From positions 1-30,947 of the IMG/VR virus record IMGVR_UViG_3300017697_002075: 30,947 nt of DNA; one strand, 5' to 3'. This DNA is from a virus. Within the stretch, counting starts at the first letter, position 1, and each line of letters starts with the position of its first letter. Both the position numbers and the translations under genes were made by a program. Positions 15,554 through 30,354 of this stretch are shown piece after piece. A model generated the notes under the pieces. The model ran no database searches and had not been told where the DNA came from. It saw only the letters and a program-made list of their open reading frames with translations.

Positions 15554-16075
15554 ATGCTTATAAAAACAGACGATCTTGGTATCCCACGATTTACAAATAA
15601 AGACTTAGTTGATATGATCTATACCGGTCATGTTGACAAATGTCATGTTGTGCTATGTGATCCTAGTGATAACATAGACAAGTTTAATCAAGCAATGCGT
15701 GAACAATGTCTACCAGAACTTAAACAGTATATTCCCTTAGATGTAGACGAAAAGACTTTTGACGGTGCGTTACAGAGTGAATGGTTTATGCCAGATGAAT
15801 ATAAAGAACTCAGTGTGTCTGCACATGTTTTAGATCGTTGTACAACTGATGCACAGCGACAGCGAGTAGAAGAAGAACTTACAGCGTTCAATGAACGAGG
15901 ACTAGTTCCTTTACTACAATATATGATCTATCTTGTAGACTTTATGCGTGAGAATAACATTGTATGGGGCGTAGGTAGAGGATCAAGTGTAGCATCATAT
16001 GTGCTATACTTAATAGGCGTACACAGAATCGATTCAATCCAGTTTGACCTAGACTGGACCGAGTTCTTGAGATAA
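15554..16075 (+). CDS. truncated DnaE-like protein (DNA polymerase III alpha fragment)
   Basis: Protein of 173 residues. Its C-terminal 70 residues match the start of the bacterial replicative polymerase (DnaE/PolC) palm: an RVEEEL...FNERGLVPLLQYM helix region, then NIVWGVGRGSSVASYVLYLI and a final DWTEFLR. The last corresponds to the LLFERFL of DnaE. The GRGS motif, which contacts the incoming nucleotide, is present. The protein stops just before the segment that in DnaE carries the first two catalytic aspartates (PDxDxDF), and it has no PHP domain. It therefore cannot be an active polymerase. It might act as a decoy or partner of the host replisome or have a new role. No good Shine-Dalgarno is seen before ATG 15554, but an in-frame TAA at 15542 rules out a start further upstream. 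Confidence -1.
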   Translation: MLIKTDDLGIPRFTNKDLVDMIYTGHVDKCHVVLCDPSDNIDKFNQAMREQCLPELKQYIPLDVDEKTFDGALQSEWFMPDEYKELSVSAHVLDRCTTDAQRQRVEEELTAFNERGLVPLLQYMIYLVDFMRENNIVWGVGRGSSVASYVLYLIGVHRIDSIQFDLDWTEFLR

Positions 16076-16078
16076 GTA
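16071..16078 (+). promoter_or_regulatory. possible late promoter motif GATAAGTA
   Basis: GATAAGTA overlaps the stop codon of the DnaE-like gene and lies 28 nt before ATG 16107, with a predicted start near 16084. It is one base further from consensus than the other candidates, but identical to the motif inside the hairpin before the DnaJ-like gene (25739-25746). Confidence -1.
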
Positions 16079-16106
16079 AGTATATAACTAATAGGAGGCT
16101 ATTAAC

Positions 16107-22129: not shown

Positions 22130-22137
22130 GATAAATA
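22130..22137 (+). promoter_or_regulatory. T4-type late promoter motif GATAAATA
   Basis: GATAAATA lies in the 155-nt divergent gap (22010-22164) between phoH and the next + strand gene. It predicts an RNA start near 22143, followed by AGGA (22155-22158) and ATG 22165. The rest of the gap shows only a weak 5-bp hairpin (GCTTT/AAAGC around 22049-22063) and the phoH ribosome site. Confidence -1.
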
Positions 22138-22164
22138 AGTATGTAAAGAAACTTAGGATAACCC

Positions 22165-24685: not shown

Positions 24686-24959
24686 TACTGTAAAAACGAC
24701 TGTACCGATTGTAGCTCGTCCCAAGGGTGCGCAAATCAATGACGTAAAGATCTATGTTGTTACAGCAGAAAACTATGACGAGTTTGTTGAAAAGTTTACA
24801 GCAAAGAATGGCGAACTTGCATATATTGCTATCTCAGTTAAGGACTATGAAAACCTTAGTTTAAACTTTGCAGAACTAAAGCGTTTTATTGAACAGCAAA
24901 AACAAATCATTGTTTATTACGAAGAAGCTGTTAAGCCAGAAACTCCTCCACTAGATTAA
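24588..24959 (+). CDS. outer-membrane spanin lipoprotein (Rz1-like)
   Basis: Protein of 123 residues from ATG 24588 (MRLIAYGMISAALLTLMGCS), overlapping the i-spanin gene by 98 nt in a different frame. It has a short hydrophobic signal and a lipobox, LMGC, with Cys19 as the predicted lipidated residue. AGGA at 24578-24581 gives a proper 6-nt spacing, so I reject the upstream in-frame TTG 24570. Most of the gene extends beyond the i-spanin (overlapping rather than fully embedded), and it is long for an Rz1. The mature part has an alpha/beta portion (YVVTAENYDEFVEKF) and a C-terminal helix. The function follows from context: the outer-membrane half of the spanin complex. Confidence -1.
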   Translation: MRLIAYGMISAALLTLMGCSSLRQEPQIVTVTNTVKTTVPIVARPKGAQINDVKIYVVTAENYDEFVEKFTAKNGELAYIAISVKDYENLSLNFAELKRFIEQQKQIIVYYEEAVKPETPPLD

Positions 24960-24965
24960 TAAATA
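24958..24965 (+). promoter_or_regulatory. T4-type late promoter motif AATAAATA
   Basis: AATAAATA overlaps the o-spanin stop and predicts an RNA start near 24971, inside the left arm of the hairpin at 24968-24993. The motif plus the next three bases is identical to the candidate at 9885. Confidence -1.
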
Positions 24966-24967
24966 CA

Positions 24968-24993
24968 CATAGTAAAAGAGAGGGTTTACTATG
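24968..24993 (+). promoter_or_regulatory. start-codon hairpin before the 100-aa lysis-region gene
   Basis: Perfect 9-bp inverted repeat CATAGTAAA (24968-24976) / TTTACTATG (24985-24993). Its right arm ends in the ATG of the gene at 24991, and its 8-nt loop AGAGAGGG carries the ribosome site. RNA from upstream promoters would hold the start codon in the stem. RNA starting at about 24971 from the late promoter would lack the first bases of the left arm and weaken it. Confidence -1.
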
Positions 24994-25293
24994 TGGGATT
25001 TAATTGAACGACTAACGGGCGATACTTTGTGGATATACACAAGTATACTTGGCGCACTAGCTGGCGCTGCATTTCTAGCTTATTTTAAAGATACAAGAGC
25101 AGGGCTTTGGTGCTATGCTAAACTAGATCAATTCTTAGACTTCTTAGTTGTAAGATGGGGATTGACATGGTTCGAGCAGCCAACAGACGCTTGGCGTAAA
25201 AAATACCCACATGTAACTAAAAAGATAGATGAGTTAGAATCTCGTCTTGCAAAACTAGAGGGAAATAAAAATGCCAAGAAAAAAGCCAACTGA
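24991..25293 (+). CDS. small membrane protein of the lysis region (holin candidate)
   Basis: Protein of 100 residues with one clear membrane segment near the N-terminus (about 13-31, LWIYTSILGALAGAAFLAYF), followed by an aromatic amphipathic region. The C-terminal helix is charged (ITKKIDELESRLAKLEG-like, here VTKKIDELESRLAKLEG) and ends in a lysine-rich tail. Position after the spanins suggests a holin or antiholin, but tail-associated roles are possible. The start codon lies in a perfect hairpin with GAGAGGG in the loop (24968-24993). The 3' end overlaps the next gene by 23 nt. Confidence -1.
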   Translation: MWDLIERLTGDTLWIYTSILGALAGAAFLAYFKDTRAGLWCYAKLDQFLDFLVVRWGLTWFEQPTDAWRKKYPHVTKKIDELESRLAKLEGNKNAKKKAN

Positions 25294-25708
25294 ATTAAAG
25301 AGTGCAGCACCGGCGGAAGCTCCAGTAATTGAAACATCAGCTCCTGCACCTGTAAGTACACCAGTAGTAGCAGCAGCAGCACCAGCGCCTGCAGTACAAA
25401 ATACAGGTTATCATCCTGCAGATATAAACGGTGATGGGCACATTGATGCTGAAGAAAAACAAATGGAACTTGAGTTTAGACGCAAATCTTTAGAAGATCA
25501 AGATGCAATGCGTGATGCACAAAGAAGTATGACTTGGTTTGCATTATTTGGATTACTACTATATCCGTTTGCGGTAGTTGTTACATCGTTACTAGGATTA
25601 GGTGAAGCCACAAAGACACTAGGATCAATGGCACCAACATACTTTGTTGCTGTTGCTGGTATTGTTGCTGCGTTCTTTGGCGCACAGGCATATAGTAAAA
25701 AGAAATAA
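25271..25708 (+). CDS. EF-hand-containing double-membrane-spanning protein (holin candidate)
   Basis: Protein of 145 residues in three parts. A Pro/Ala-rich, probably disordered N-terminus (about 1-45) comes first. Next is a canonical EF-hand-type calcium loop, DINGDGHIDAEE (51-62), with D51, N53, D55, H57, D59 and E62 at the six coordinating positions. After a charged helix come two membrane segments (about 88-110 and 120-141) separated by a short turn, with a YSKKK tail. The topology fits a class II holin. Calcium could affect oligomerisation, but that is inference. Ribosome site GAGGGAA at 25258-25264; the gene overlaps its upstream neighbour. I recall similar EF-hand membrane proteins in marine T4-like phages (not checked). 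Confidence -1.
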   Translation: MPRKKPTELKSAAPAEAPVIETSAPAPVSTPVVAAAAPAPAVQNTGYHPADINGDGHIDAEEKQMELEFRRKSLEDQDAMRDAQRSMTWFALFGLLLYPFAVVVTSLLGLGEATKTLGSMAPTYFVAVAGIVAAFFGAQAYSKKK

Positions 25709-25724
25709 TCATTATGAATAAAAC

Positions 25725-25763
25725 ATAATAGTCCATGCGATAAGTAGTTACATGGACTATTAT
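25725..25763 (+). promoter_or_regulatory. 13-bp start-codon hairpin with late-promoter motif in its loop
   Basis: Perfect inverted repeat ATAATAGTCCATG (25725-25737) / CATGGACTATTAT (25751-25763). The 13-nt loop holds GATAAGTA (25739-25746), and the right arm contains the ATG (25752) and first codons of the DnaJ-like gene. No ribosome site is visible. A late transcript would start at about 25752 and lack the left arm. An alternative 6-bp hairpin, ATTATG (25711-25716) / CATAAT (25724-25729), competes for the left arm. Confidence -1.
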
Positions 25764-26582
25764 TCTACACTAGGCGTTAATAGAAACGCTTCTTCTCAAG
25801 ATATTAAACACGCATATCGTAAACTTGCGATGGCAAATCATCCTGATCGCAACGGCGGTGATGATACAAAGTTTAAACAAATTAACGAAGCTTATGAAAC
25901 ACTAAAAGATCCTGCTAAAAAACAGCAGTATGACAATCCCCAACCTAGCTTTAATACAAATAATATGCATCAAAGAGGCCCTCAAGATTTCAATGACATG
26001 TTTAATGGGATGTTTGGATTTGGAAATCAAAGAGGTAGACAACAGCGCAATAGAGATGTTATAATAGAGCATACACTGACATTTGAAGAAGTGTTTAGTG
26101 GAAAGTCAATAAACTTGCAATATAGATTACAAAGCGGAAGAATAGAAACATTAGATGCTATAGTTCCACCGGGGATTAGGCACAATGATAGTGTTAGATT
26201 TGGCGGAATGGGCGATGATAGTATTCCACATATCCAGCGGGGGAACTTAGTTCTTAACATTAAAGTTCGACCACATGCAAAATGGAATAGGGATGGTGAT
26301 AATATTATTACCAAACATACTGTGTCGGTATTTGATTTAATATTAGGTACTTCAATTAAGGTGGTAACACCAACAGGAAAGAATTTTAGTATAACTGTGC
26401 CAAAAGGATCAAAGTCAGGTACTGTGTTTAGTATAACAGGGCAAGGTATTCCTAATGTAAATACAAGACGGGCGGGTAATGCACATATTAAAGTTGAAGC
26501 AGTAGTACCGAACATACATGACGAAACAATATTAAACAAATTAAAGGAAATTAAAGATGAAATTGATAAGCTCACCGAATAA
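25752..26582 (+). CDS. DnaJ/CbpA-like J-domain co-chaperone
   Basis: Protein of 276 residues. The J domain starts at once (MDYYSTLGVNRNASSQDIKH) and has the HPD motif (in ANHPDRNGG), which stimulates DnaK ATPase. A short Gly/Phe/Asn linker follows (FNDMFNGMFGFGNQRG), then two beta-rich C-terminal substrate-binding domains (FEEVFSGKSINLQYRL, VPPGIRHNDSVRFGG and VPKGSKSGTVFSITGQG). The zinc-finger domain of DnaJ is absent, so it is a class B, CbpA-like, J protein. Start 25752 is fixed by the family (Met directly before DYY) yet lacks a ribosome site and lies in a 13-bp hairpin. It is first in an operon with deformylase and ClpA, so it probably recruits the host DnaK. Confidence -1.
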   Translation: MDYYSTLGVNRNASSQDIKHAYRKLAMANHPDRNGGDDTKFKQINEAYETLKDPAKKQQYDNPQPSFNTNNMHQRGPQDFNDMFNGMFGFGNQRGRQQRNRDVIIEHTLTFEEVFSGKSINLQYRLQSGRIETLDAIVPPGIRHNDSVRFGGMGDDSIPHIQRGNLVLNIKVRPHAKWNRDGDNIITKHTVSVFDLILGTSIKVVTPTGKNFSITVPKGSKSGTVFSITGQGIPNVNTRRAGNAHIKVEAVVPNIHDETILNKLKEIKDEIDKLTE

Positions 26583-27066
26583 GTTCTTAAATATCGTTAC
26601 AAAGCCATTTGATTTTGATTCAATGGATGCTAAACAAGTGTCGGGAGAGATGTGTCAAGTAATGATGGCAAAGAATGGCATTGGGCTTGCAGCTAATCAA
26701 GTAGGTATAGATGCACAAATTTTCGTAATGCGTCCTACACAACATGCAGAAGTAACTAAGCCGTTTGCTGTTATTAATCCTGTTATTCTTGAAGTAAGTG
26801 ATGATAGCAATTTAAGTAAGGAAGGATGTTTAAGTCATATAGGATTGATATTATCAATCAAACGGCCTAATAAAATAGTTGTAAAATTCCTTGACATCGC
26901 GAACAAAGAGTGTATACTAGAGTTAAGTGGAATAGATGCTAGGTGCTTCTTACATGAATATGATCATCTTCAAGGCATAGAATTTACAGACAGAATTTCA
27001 AAACTAAAACTAGACATAGCAAAGAAAAAACAAAAGAAATTAATAAAGGAACACACTAATGGTTGA
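26557..27066 (+). CDS. def: peptide deformylase
   Basis: Protein of 169 residues that removes the formyl group from nascent N-termini, using a metal held by one Cys and two His. All three motifs are visible: GIGLAANQ (41-48), EGCLS with ligand Cys91, and HEYDH (133-137) with His133, Glu134 and His137. Unlike some phage deformylases that end soon after motif 3, this one keeps a short lysine-rich C-terminal helix. It starts inside the end of the DnaJ-like gene (AAAGGAAA upstream) and overlaps clpA by 8 nt. Deformylase acts at the ribosome exit, like J proteins, so the operon looks like a nascent-protein quality-control unit. High confidence. Confidence -1.
   Translation: MKLISSPNKFLNIVTKPFDFDSMDAKQVSGEMCQVMMAKNGIGLAANQVGIDAQIFVMRPTQHAEVTKPFAVINPVILEVSDDSNLSKEGCLSHIGLILSIKRPNKIVVKFLDIANKECILELSGIDARCFLHEYDHLQGIEFTDRISKLKLDIAKKKQKKLIKEHTNG
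26891..26918 (+). promoter_or_regulatory. possible internal sigma70 promoter before clpA
   Basis: TTGACA (26891-26896), 16 nt, TATACT (26913-26918), inside the deformylase gene and about 140 nt before clpA. It has 11 of 12 consensus bases, but it lies in coding sequence and the evidence is weak. Confidence -1.
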
Positions 27067-29302
27067 ACCAAGTAAAGATTTACAACTAGTATTTGATAAA
27101 GCAGTTAAAGACGCTCAAAAGTTGCAACACGAGTATGTTACACTTGAGCACTTACTGTTCGCAATGTTGTGTAGCGAAACATTTTATAATCTAGTTAAAG
27201 AGTTTGGTGCTGATCCAGATTACATGAAATCTAATCTAGAGCATCATCTAAAAACTGGTTGCGAAGATCTTATAGTTGATACATCTAAACATAAGCCCAA
27301 GAAAACACAAACTGTTGAACGATGTTTAAATCGTGCATTTACACAAACATTGTTTAACGGGCGCAGTCATATTGAACTAAGTGATGTAATGCTTAGTATC
27401 ATTAGCGAGAAAAAATCCCTCGCGGCATATTATTGCGATCAAGCAGGAATTGACAAAAATAAATTTGCTACTTACCTGAGCAGCGAAGTTGACGCTAACG
27501 AAGAAGACGAAGAAATGAGTGGAGCGGCTGCAAAGGCATTGCGGGCATTCACAACTAATCTTAATGACGAAGTTAAAAAGAAATCAATTGATCCTGTGAT
27601 CGGTCGTGCAGAAGAATTAGATGCTATTGCACTTGCACTTGGTCGTCGTAATAAAAATAATGTATTACTAGTCGGTGACCCAGGCGTTGGTAAAACTGCT
27701 ATTGCAGAAGGTCTTGCATTTAATATTGAACAGAATACTGTGCCTGAATTCTTAAAGGAATATAATGTTTATAACTTAGACATTGGTGCCATGCTTGCTG
27801 GTAGTAAGTATCGAGGAGACTTTGAAGAACGCTTTAAACTTGTTCTAGCTGCCTTAAAGAAAAAAGGCAAAACTATTATGTTCATCGACGAAGCACACAT
27901 GATTAGTGGCGCAGGCGCAGGTGGTGGAAATAGTGCAAACGATCTTGCTAACATGTTAAAACCGGCATTAAGTAAAGGCAACATTAAAGTAGTTGCATCA
28001 ACTACATGGGAAGAGTATCGCAAGTACTTTGAAAAAGATCGTGCATTGATGCGTCGATTCCAGCGTGTAACAGTTGACGAACCTAGTGCAGAAGTAACTA
28101 AAGATATCCTATTAGGTCTTAAGAAATACTATGAAGATTATCACAAAACTATTATTACCGACGAAGCACTTGACGAGGCAATTAAATTAAGTATTAAATA
28201 TCAGTCAGATAAGAAATTACCTGACAAAGCAATTGACTTAATTGATCAGGCGTGTTCGCGGTTTAATCTAAAAGAAGTTATAGGTGATAAAATTGTTGAT
28301 GCAGCAGAAATTCAATACGAGCTTGCTAAAGCAGTTAACTTGCCAGAAGAACAAGTAAGCGAAAAAGAAACTGAGAATCTTGCTAATCTTGAACACAATA
28401 TTAAAAAGCAAGTTTACGGCCAAGATAAAGCAGTCGAAAGTATCGTTGATAAAATACTTGTTGCACAAGCAGGTCTTAAGGCAGCAGATAAGCCTATTGG
28501 TAGCTTTGTGTTTATGGGACCAACAGGTACTGGTAAAACTGAAACAGCAAAAGCACTTGCTAGTAACTTAGGTGTAAAGCTTGTAAGGTTTGATATGAGT
28601 GAATATCAAGAAAAGCACAGTGTAAGTAAGCTAATTGGTTCACCTCCGGGATATGTCGGCCACGAAGATAGTGCAGGACAATTAATTGTTAAGTTACAAG
28701 AATCGCCAAACTGTGTGCTTCTGCTTGACGAAATTGAAAAGGCTCACCCAGATGTAAGTCAAATCCTACTACAAATTATGGATAATGGTAAGATTACAGG
28801 ATCGAACGGTAAAGAAGCTGATGCTCGTAATTGTACATTAATTCTTACTACTAACTTAGGCGCTGCTGATTCTGAGAAGAACTCCATCGGCTTTGGCACA
28901 GACTTTGAAGATAATTCATATGAGGACAAAGCTCTTAAGAAATTCTTTAGTCCAGAGTTCCGTAATCGCTTAGACGGTGTTGTTACTTTTGCTAAACTTG
29001 GTAAGCCGGTAATGTTAAAAATTGTTGGTAAGTTCCTTGTTGAACTTAAAGAATTAGTTAAGGATAAGAATGTTGCAATTAAAGTTACTGACGAAACTCT
29101 TGATTATTTAGTGGACAAGGGATTTGATCCTAAGATGGGCGCTCGTCCGTTGCAGCGTGTTATTGATAAAGAAATCAAGATGCCATTGGCTAGAGAGCTG
29201 TTATTTGGAAAACTTAAAAATGGCGGAGATTTAACAATTGACATTGTTGATGATGCTATTGTACTAAAGGTAAATGATAATGAAGTCGTTGAACAGACTT
29301 GA
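27059..29302 (+). CDS. clpA: ClpA-type AAA+ unfoldase, full length
   Basis: Protein of 747 residues (E. coli ClpA 758) with an N-domain (1-145), an acidic linker (NEEDEEM) and two AAA+ modules. The first has Walker A GDPGVGKT (206-213), GSKYRGDFEERF and Walker B MFIDEAH. The second has Walker A GPTGTGKT (487-494), MSEYQEKHSVSKLIGSPPGY and LLLDEIEKAHPD. The coiled-coil middle domain of ClpB is absent. An IGF tripeptide (610-612, in NSIGFGTD) is at the place of the ClpP-docking IGL loop of ClpA. It is therefore expected to feed substrates into the host ClpP protease. AAGGAA precedes ATG 27059; the gene overlaps def and the next gene. No phage clpP is seen here. Confidence -1.
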   Translation: MVEPSKDLQLVFDKAVKDAQKLQHEYVTLEHLLFAMLCSETFYNLVKEFGADPDYMKSNLEHHLKTGCEDLIVDTSKHKPKKTQTVERCLNRAFTQTLFNGRSHIELSDVMLSIISEKKSLAAYYCDQAGIDKNKFATYLSSEVDANEEDEEMSGAAAKALRAFTTNLNDEVKKKSIDPVIGRAEELDAIALALGRRNKNNVLLVGDPGVGKTAIAEGLAFNIEQNTVPEFLKEYNVYNLDIGAMLAGSKYRGDFEERFKLVLAALKKKGKTIMFIDEAHMISGAGAGGGNSANDLANMLKPALSKGNIKVVASTTWEEYRKYFEKDRALMRRFQRVTVDEPSAEVTKDILLGLKKYYEDYHKTIITDEALDEAIKLSIKYQSDKKLPDKAIDLIDQACSRFNLKEVIGDKIVDAAEIQYELAKAVNLPEEQVSEKETENLANLEHNIKKQVYGQDKAVESIVDKILVAQAGLKAADKPIGSFVFMGPTGTGKTETAKALASNLGVKLVRFDMSEYQEKHSVSKLIGSPPGYVGHEDSAGQLIVKLQESPNCVLLLDEIEKAHPDVSQILLQIMDNGKITGSNGKEADARNCTLILTTNLGAADSEKNSIGFGTDFEDNSYEDKALKKFFSPEFRNRLDGVVTFAKLGKPVMLKIVGKFLVELKELVKDKNVAIKVTDETLDYLVDKGFDPKMGARPLQRVIDKEIKMPLARELLFGKLKNGGDLTIDIVDDAIVLKVNDNEVVEQT

Positions 29303-29948
29303 AACTGTAAAACTATTTTATGATGAATACCCGTACAAGCTAGTTGTAGTAAATGCTCTTGTGCATATTTTTAGAGAAAAGAATCTAAGAATTGCACAAG
29401 TAGCACTTACTGCACTACAGCAGCAGTATGATATAGGTGAGCCGCTAAGACAAGGACAATATTCACTTAAGAAGCCAATCGAGCTTAGTACATTTATTGA
29501 AGCAAAAAGTTTGTATGCAGAATTTTGCAAGCAAGAAGATTATAAATTACGAGTCTCTGGACCCCGTATGCAAATATATTCACATGATATTTCTTGGCTT
29601 AAAATGTTAGGCAATAAATTTAATGGTGCATTAGAATTATGGGAACCTAATAAAGAAAATATTTCTAAACTACATAAAAATATTATATTTGTTGACTATG
29701 AAATTAAATATGAATATAAAATTACGTTAGGGTATTCGTGCGATCCAGGTTTAGCAGCATGGATTAGAAACAATCCGGGTAAGGCTAAAGCCGGCGATAC
29801 TTGTTTAGCGGCAATAGAATCTAACGGCTACATTCGAGGAATGTATTTCTATGTAAGAGATGATAAAATTATACAACTCTTAAGTTTGTTTGTTGGTAAA
29901 TTAGCTAGGGTCGACAAATTAGTCTACAACACAACTATTGATAAATAG
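29280..29948 (+). CDS. conserved phage protein, unknown function
   Basis: Protein of 222 residues from ATG 29280 (MKSLNRLETVKLFYDEYPYK); the in-frame ATG at 29274 is only 3 nt from the AAAGG ribosome site (29266-29270), whereas 29280 has a 9-nt spacing. The first third is helical and basic (LVVVNALVHIFREKNLRIAQ). The rest alternates strands and helices, with YKLRVSGPRMQIYSHDISWL, ELWEPNKENIS and a C-terminal LLSLFVGKLARVDKL. I recall similar uncharacterised proteins in T4-like marine phages (not checked). It is cotranscribed with clpA (23-nt overlap). Its stop codon lies in the late-promoter hairpin of the next gene. No enzymatic motif seen. Confidence -1.
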   Translation: MKSLNRLETVKLFYDEYPYKLVVVNALVHIFREKNLRIAQVALTALQQQYDIGEPLRQGQYSLKKPIELSTFIEAKSLYAEFCKQEDYKLRVSGPRMQIYSHDISWLKMLGNKFNGALELWEPNKENISKLHKNIIFVDYEIKYEYKITLGYSCDPGLAAWIRNNPGKAKAGDTCLAAIESNGYIRGMYFYVRDDKIIQLLSLFVGKLARVDKLVYNTTIDK

Positions 29949-29952
29949 TTGT
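29931..29952 (+). promoter_or_regulatory. 9-bp hairpin overlapping late promoter GATAAATA, abutting a start codon
   Basis: Perfect inverted repeat ACAACTATT (29931-29939) / AATAGTTGT (29944-29952) with the 4-nt loop GATA. The late motif GATAAATA (29940-29947) spans the loop and right arm. T4 geometry puts the RNA start at about 29953, the A of the ATG. There is no ribosome site. The stop codon of the upstream gene (29946-29948) lies in the right arm. Confidence -1.
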
Positions 29953-30354
29953 ATGAATAGTAAAACCATCTTATCAGCAAATACGCACCCAGGAGACAGT
30001 GCAAATACTGTCATCACTGGGGAGAAATTCAAAGGCGACGGTTACTACGGACGTAGTGACGGCCTCCATACAGTACAAGTAGACCTAGCAGGGTTTATTG
30101 GGAAAGTAGCTATGCAAGGAACACTTGCAACTAACCCAGTAGAAGCTGACTGGTTTACTTTAGTTTTAGACTCCGGTAAACAAAGTGTTGACACTACTGG
30201 TTTAGTTGCAACCCAAAGTATTACATCTATAGAATATACTAGTGTTACAACTAATACTAAAAACTATAATTTTACTGGAAACTATGTTTGGGTAAGAGCA
30301 TATGTTAGTAATTGGACTGACGGCACAGTTAACAGTATAAGATTAAATCATTAA
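29953..30354 (+). CDS. virion structural protein
   Basis: Protein of 133 residues (MNSKTILSANTHPGDSANTV...). It is beta-rich, with FKGDGYYGRSDGLHTVQV, GKVAMQGTLATNPVEADWF, GNYVWVRAYVSNW and a C-terminal NSIRLNH. This GDGYYGRSDGLHT...MQGTL...W...VWVRA pattern is one I recall from small structural proteins encoded beside fibres in marine T4-like phages (not checked). I start at ATG 29953; a TTG 15 nt upstream would lie inside the hairpin stem and has no ribosome site either. With the late motif at 29940-29947 the mRNA may be leaderless. It is followed after 11 nt by the YadA-like fibre gene. Confidence -1.
   Translation: MNSKTILSANTHPGDSANTVITGEKFKGDGYYGRSDGLHTVQVDLAGFIGKVAMQGTLATNPVEADWFTLVLDSGKQSVDTTGLVATQSITSIEYTSVTTNTKNYNFTGNYVWVRAYVSNWTDGTVNSIRLNH

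Follow-up and report, generated by a model that had tools for sequence, protein, structure and literature searches.

The window analysed here, the whole 30,947-base stretch of a viral fragment in IMG/VR (record IMGVR_UViG_3300017697_002075), carries a dnaJ-like gene whose start codon, at 25752, sits within the right (3') arm of a 13-base-pair (bp) hairpin and, on inspection, has no Shine-Dalgarno (SD) sequence upstream (Table 1). Within the loop of this hairpin lies a candidate late promoter of the type used by phage T4 and certain cyanophages. The dnaJ gene is followed by genes for a peptide deformylase (def) and a ClpA/ClpB-type ATPase (clpA), and it is preceded by genes for an endolysin and an Rz-like spanin, by another frame that overlaps, and by gene 24991 and a short gene; together these upstream genes make up a lysis cassette.

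Table 1. Features of the dnaJ start region and its surroundings (positions in the window)
Feature	Position	Strand	Remarks
Late box AATAAATA of gene 24991	24958-24965	+	probable origin of RNA reading through into dnaJ
Second start-codon hairpin, 11 bp	24966-24995	+	over ATG 24991; SD in loop
Small upstream gene	25271-25708	+	C-terminal half hydrophobic; lysis region; stop 43 nucleotides 5' of the dnaJ ATG
Hairpin 5' arm, ATAATAGTCCATG	25725-25737	+	non-coding; perfect complement of 25751-25763; the two arms covary across 54 relatives
Putative late promoter box GATAAGTA in hairpin loop	25739-25746	+	-13 to -6 by T4 numbering; 5 nucleotides from the ATG
Hairpin 3' arm, CATGGACTATTAT	25751-25763	+	holds ATG GAC TAT TAT; synonymous third-position changes have partners in the 5' arm
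Predicted +1 of late RNA	25752	+	A of the dnaJ ATG; box at -13 to -6; 5-nucleotide spacing class; class C agrees
dnaJ-like gene	25752-26582	+	J domain and DnaJ_C, 276 amino acids; Pfam PF00226, PF01556
Peptide deformylase gene (def)	26557-27066	+	Pfam PF01327; own SD AAAGGAA; overlaps the end of dnaJ
ClpA/ClpB-type AAA+ ATPase gene	27059-29302	+	Pfam; own SD

The two arms form 13 perfect pairs around a 13-nucleotide (nt) loop. This was the only perfect stem of at least 13 bp with a loop of at most 20 nt in the window, and none was found in 40 shuffled versions. With stems of at least 11 bp and the same loop limit there were two, this one and the one at 24966-24995, each over a start codon, compared with a mean of 0.125 in shuffled windows. 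RNA folding, a check named in the initial annotation of this DNA, came out favourably: the fold energy was -23.3 kcal/mol (z -4.65), a stability reached by 0 of 200 shuffles, and opening the AUG inside the 3' arm would cost 13.0 kcal/mol in read-through RNA. With this energy the helix would probably stay closed at environmental temperature, unlike an RNA thermometer. Sequence inspection and the repeat search agreed exactly with that annotation on the arms, the loop, the ATG in the right arm and the missing ribosome site. Its overall extent (25711-25763) holds for the hairpin proper, but the start at 25711 takes in a competing 6-bp hairpin (25711-25729), which had been proposed to release the stem in read-through RNA. 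As only 57% of its cells were paired across relatives and its covariation was no better than in shuffles, this releaser was rejected. A terminator reading of the dnaJ hairpin was also rejected, as no T run follows the stem on the plus strand and a terminator scan did not pick it out.

Protein and pattern searches yielded a set of 129 distinct homologous dnaJ starts, and the hairpin is retained in 54 of them. Pair counts across these homologues were bimodal, and the starts could be sorted into class A, with the hairpin; class B, with the same box 5 nt before the ATG and no hairpin; and class C, in which the promoter is of sigma-70 type; a few starts fall outside these classes. Class A starts are nearly always located 3' of one type of small membrane-like protein gene, whose stop is separated from the ATG by 32-47 nt (43 nt in 41 of 53 loci), and class B starts mostly follow another type of upstream gene, with gaps mostly of 12-29 nt. 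About 24 class switches were counted on the DnaJ tree, below the minimum of 30 obtained with shuffled labels, which suggests that exchange at the gene junction may underlie the switches. A search with the hairpin pattern found 103 stretches in viral contigs and 0 in GTDB contigs; no close isolate was present in the annotated phage set, where the best DnaJ matches were distant.

In the ungapped alignment of the 54 class A rows, standard pairs occupied 94.8% of cells, versus 23-52% for slid partners, and 18 cells were changed on both sides, versus 4.3 in shuffles; the rows are related and these counts are not independent, and repeated co-changes on the tree make the stronger argument. By parsimony on the protein tree, pair -24:8, which flipped from A-U to G-C about seven times, underwent seven changes on each side and eight jointly. 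Variation in the coding arm is followed by the non-coding one: at this pair, TAT/TAC variation in Tyr codon 3 is mirrored by A/G, a Tyr-to-His codon in two loci (L042 and L057) is matched by a change in the non-coding arm, and an Asp-to-Asn codon in another (L051) turns a C-G pair into U-A. Cognate arms paired better than swapped arms, with 0 of 5000 permutations doing as well. Of 45 deviant letters in the 5' arm, 44 still pair on the plus-strand RNA and 10 on the minus strand; U and G opposite A or C are invariant in the non-coding arm, and substitutions of A and C lead almost exclusively to G and U. These substitutions fit wobble pairing on the plus strand only, and a minus-strand function was rejected on this ground. 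Covariation of the arms and strand-specific pairing thus show that the dnaJ hairpin is a sense-strand RNA helix under selection. The compensatory changes outside the codons that the initial annotation had asked about are present, and the hairpin it described from one stretch of DNA is a real structure, conserved and covarying in 54 relatives.

Late boxes of T4 span positions -13 to -6 (PMC2988020), and the cyanophages S-PM2 and Syn9 have late promoters of the form NATAAATA, together with gp55 (PMC2984593). We defined a T4-like late promoter as an 8-bp box TATAAATA or a close variant at -13 to -6, with no -35 element, in a phage encoding the late sigma factor gp55. The loop box GATAAGTA differs from the T4 consensus TATAAATA at two positions and from the cyanophage NATAAATA at one, and is a T4-like late box by this definition. 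Boxes of the NATAARTA family also lie 17-28 nt 5' of eight gene starts in the window, with an SD in between, and gp55 is present in 7 of 12 related contigs (phrog_12791, E 1.2e-75), a count made in relatives, the window itself being a fragment. Box-to-ATG distances in five contigs clustered sharply at 5 nt (18 cases); a second, wider group covered 16-35 nt, and the interval of 12-15 nt was empty. Five scrambled motifs gave 1-2 cases at 5 nt and no spike. In filtered listings, starts of the 16-35 nt class mostly have an SD, whereas those of the 5-nt class lack one. By its sequence the loop element is a putative late promoter of the T4/cyanophage type, and the earlier proposal of a late promoter there is supported by the box family before window genes, by gp55 in relatives and by the fixed spacing.

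The late boxes of dnaJ are nearly always NATAAGTA or GGTAAATA, each one step from the consensus, and the two changes almost never occur together; SD-led late genes, unlike dnaJ, mostly have NATAAATA (52 to 8), a difference that perhaps reflects tuned promoter strength. Elsewhere in the window, late boxes were noted before the unidentified gene 16107 (within 16071-16106) and the virion structural-like gene 22165 (within 22130-22164), the latter with two overlapping boxes, GATAAATAAGTA, at position 22130.

The distance from box to ATG is 5 nt in 106 of the 108 class A and class B dnaJ loci, whether the hairpin is present or absent. In class C, all seven loci have TTGAC[AT]-17-TATA[AC]T-6-ATG, a sigma-70 type arrangement that would also place the +1 at the ATG. 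That promoters of two types conserve a start at the ATG is the strongest argument that the mRNA is leaderless, and the predicted +1 agrees with the initial annotation, which had the late RNA begin at the A of the ATG. Replacement or joining of the dnaJ promoter by one of sigma-70 type, with exact 17-nt spacing, was seen at L040, L043, L047, L061, L062, L063 and L065, and the sigma-70 promoters at seven dnaJ loci point to a possible shift from late to early expression.

Other starts have the same look. Gene 29953, virion-structural-like, is preceded by GATAAATA gttgt ATG (29940-29953), a leaderless-type arrangement. The 5-nt spacing recurs in homologues from four related contigs, where the box overlaps with the end of the preceding gene. 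A hairpin at this gene (ACAACTATT-GATA-AATAGTTGT) is absent from these homologues and was taken as chance. A baseplate wedge gene (L223:4570-5013) has GGTAAATA tagt ATG, also leaderless-type, and a gene for a 149-amino-acid protein in contig G003 has GGTAAATA gtatt ATG. The literature searched, the coverage of which was incomplete, yielded no account of T4-like phages making leaderless late mRNAs.

A hairpin switch of the T4 kind calls for a start codon, an SD or both inside a stable helix of RNA initiated upstream, and for a late promoter placed so that its RNA loses the 5' strand. The dnaJ start codon lies inside such a helix, and RNA from the predicted +1 at 25752 would lose the 5' strand. 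Most likely, the element is an AUG-sequestering RNA switch of the T4 gene e/soc/I-TevI type combined with a leaderless late promoter, and it would work as follows: RNA arriving from upstream would contain both arms and form the 13-bp helix, hiding the dnaJ AUG; a gp55-type late RNA polymerase would bind GATAAGTA in the loop and initiate at the A of the AUG; the late mRNA, devoid of the 5' arm, would have its terminal AUG free for leaderless (70S) initiation; and DnaJ would be translated solely from its own late transcript. The selected sense-strand helix, the late-promoter motif of the box and the locked spacing are computational observations. From them we infer that the promoter is active, that RNA starts at exactly this +1, that read-through RNA is repressed in translation and that the late RNA is translated as a leaderless mRNA.

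Calculated opening costs of the AUG are consistent with this scheme. The class A median was 15.9 kcal/mol in read-through RNA versus 0.9 in leaderless RNA, and the read-through medians were 6.5 kcal/mol for class B and 3.7 for class C. Among 81 late promoters compared, four class A dnaJ sites had the largest differences between read-through and late RNA (12.4-14.5 kcal/mol). Genome-wide, the excess of AUG sequestration was modest (16% at 5 kcal/mol or more, versus 5% for swapped upstream segments), with dnaJ in the lead.

The promoter nearest upstream of dnaJ is the late box at 24958, and a scan found no plus-strand terminator between it and dnaJ, so that read-through RNA is expected. In the T4 kind of switch the read-through RNA is made in the early or middle period; here, early promoter-like sites were no more frequent than chance. 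Given a late nearest promoter, no intervening terminator and a lysis cassette in front of dnaJ, insulation of dnaJ from late lysis-region read-through is at least as likely a purpose as early/late timing; the sequence is compatible both with insulation and with timing of the T4 gene e kind. The initial annotation had the switch control the whole chaperone operon. This holds for dnaJ directly but is unclear for the operon as a whole: def and clpA each possess an SD, so the switch would act on dnaJ first. The clpA gene adjoins dnaJ in 50 of 53 class A relatives.

The hairpin might instead serve the upstream lysis-region mRNA, as a 3'-end stabiliser or a ribonuclease processing site. Strong stems often protect mRNA 3' ends, a general role that would fit here, and in most loci the 5' arm starts about 16 nt past the upstream stop. 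However, the hairpin register is fixed relative to the ATG, and not to the upstream stop, through gaps of 32-47 nt; it is tied to the ATG and the box, and two loci (L041 and L103) have a shortened post-stop spacer with an intact hairpin. The 3' arm is moreover coding and follows codon changes, and we consider this explanation unlikely. Still less probably, the hairpin is bound by a regulatory protein (an autogenous or RegA-like repressor) that recognises the loop. The loop sequence is indeed highly conserved, but class B, which has no hairpin, conserves the loop motif equally and at the same spacing, so the promoter alone explains the conservation, and the hairpin of gene 24991 has a different loop. 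Leaderless late transcription might also be real while the repeat acts as DNA, in an extended promoter, a cruciform or an operator palindrome. The repeat is a perfect palindrome in the window and spans the promoter; yet its variation obeys G-U wobble of the plus-strand RNA where the minus strand would mispair, A to G and C to T being frequent while U and G opposite A and C never vary, and many late promoters have no hairpin. This makes a DNA element very improbable. A chance inverted repeat around an ordinary start codon, to which the absence of the hairpin from some relatives might point, is ruled out by covariation, with 54 distinct homologues keeping the hairpin and 0 occurrences in 40 shuffled windows.

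Several points weigh against a sequestering switch with a leaderless late promoter. About half of the relatives (class B) keep the promoter without the hairpin, and the hairpin is therefore dispensable in some contexts. On read-through RNA, an internal AUG lacking an SD would in any case attract little initiation. The dnaJ box is off-consensus (G at -8) in nearly all dnaJ loci. A search for the sliding clamp gp45 was empty, although it was made without a positive control and is uninformative. Finally, these are uncultured phages, known here from sequence alone.

The second hairpin of the window, at gene 24991, is nearer to the classic T4 gene e arrangement in that its SD stays in the late RNA. 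With the late +1 predicted at 24971, inside the 5' arm, that RNA would lose CACAT, the partner of ATGTG. Paired changes are kept in most homologues; in 38 of 66, sequestration is weaker by at least 3 kcal/mol in the late RNA, and cognate arms outpaired swapped arms (0 of 5000 permutations). At a gene for a 95-amino-acid protein in two contigs (G003 L228:12729 and G004 L241), a hairpin spans the late leader (tatgcgta...tacgcat), and read-through and late RNA differ by 6.3-6.7 kcal/mol.

The closest parallels on record are T4 e, soc, 49, I-TevI and segB, and Aeh1 mobE. In T4 gene e, upstream RNA sequesters the start region and a late promoter located 3' of the 5' strand gives late RNA without the structure (PMC3014915). 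The dnaJ start would resemble this lysozyme gene in being hidden in upstream RNA and freed in late RNA, but its predicted RNA starts at the AUG, has no SD and encodes a chaperone, not a lysin. At I-TevI, segB and Aeh1 mobE, a stable hairpin covers the initiation region and the promoter is placed so that late RNA escapes (PMC2988022), as predicted at dnaJ. In those cases, however, the SD is sequestered and the genes are mobile endonuclease genes embedded in other operons, whereas upstream of dnaJ lies a lysis cassette with its own late box. The likeness to the S-PM2 and Syn9 late promoters lies in the box family and the late sigma homologue; dnaJ boxes differ in being mostly NATAAGTA, and leaderless use of a late box is undescribed in the literature searched.

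Leaderless mRNAs, among them that of lambda cI and mycobacterial transcripts, have a 5'-terminal AUG and no SD (PMC9031893). The predicted dnaJ mRNA would share both properties and would differ from known leaderless mRNAs in coming from a T4-type late promoter, with a hairpin blocking the same AUG on longer RNAs. What is new here is the predicted leaderless start, the chaperone gene and the spread in uncultured T4-like phages.

A wider proposal, for and against which we find the case evenly balanced, is a two-track late programme: one track of genes with SD leaders and another of leaderless genes (dnaJ, virion structural, baseplate wedge and others), with AUG-sequestering hairpins, truncated in late RNA, insulating consecutive lysis-chaperone genes. 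If this is true, each gene of the lysis-chaperone region would be translated solely from its own late RNA. The dnaJ switch would widen the textbook T4 trick, in which a start codon is hidden until a late promoter drops the 5' strand: familiar from a handful of T-even genes, it would now take in uncultured T4-like phages, a chaperone gene and a leaderless mRNA. The switch reading predicts RNA 5' ends to the base at many genes and, if it is true, these phages would be a natural system for leaderless translation during infection.
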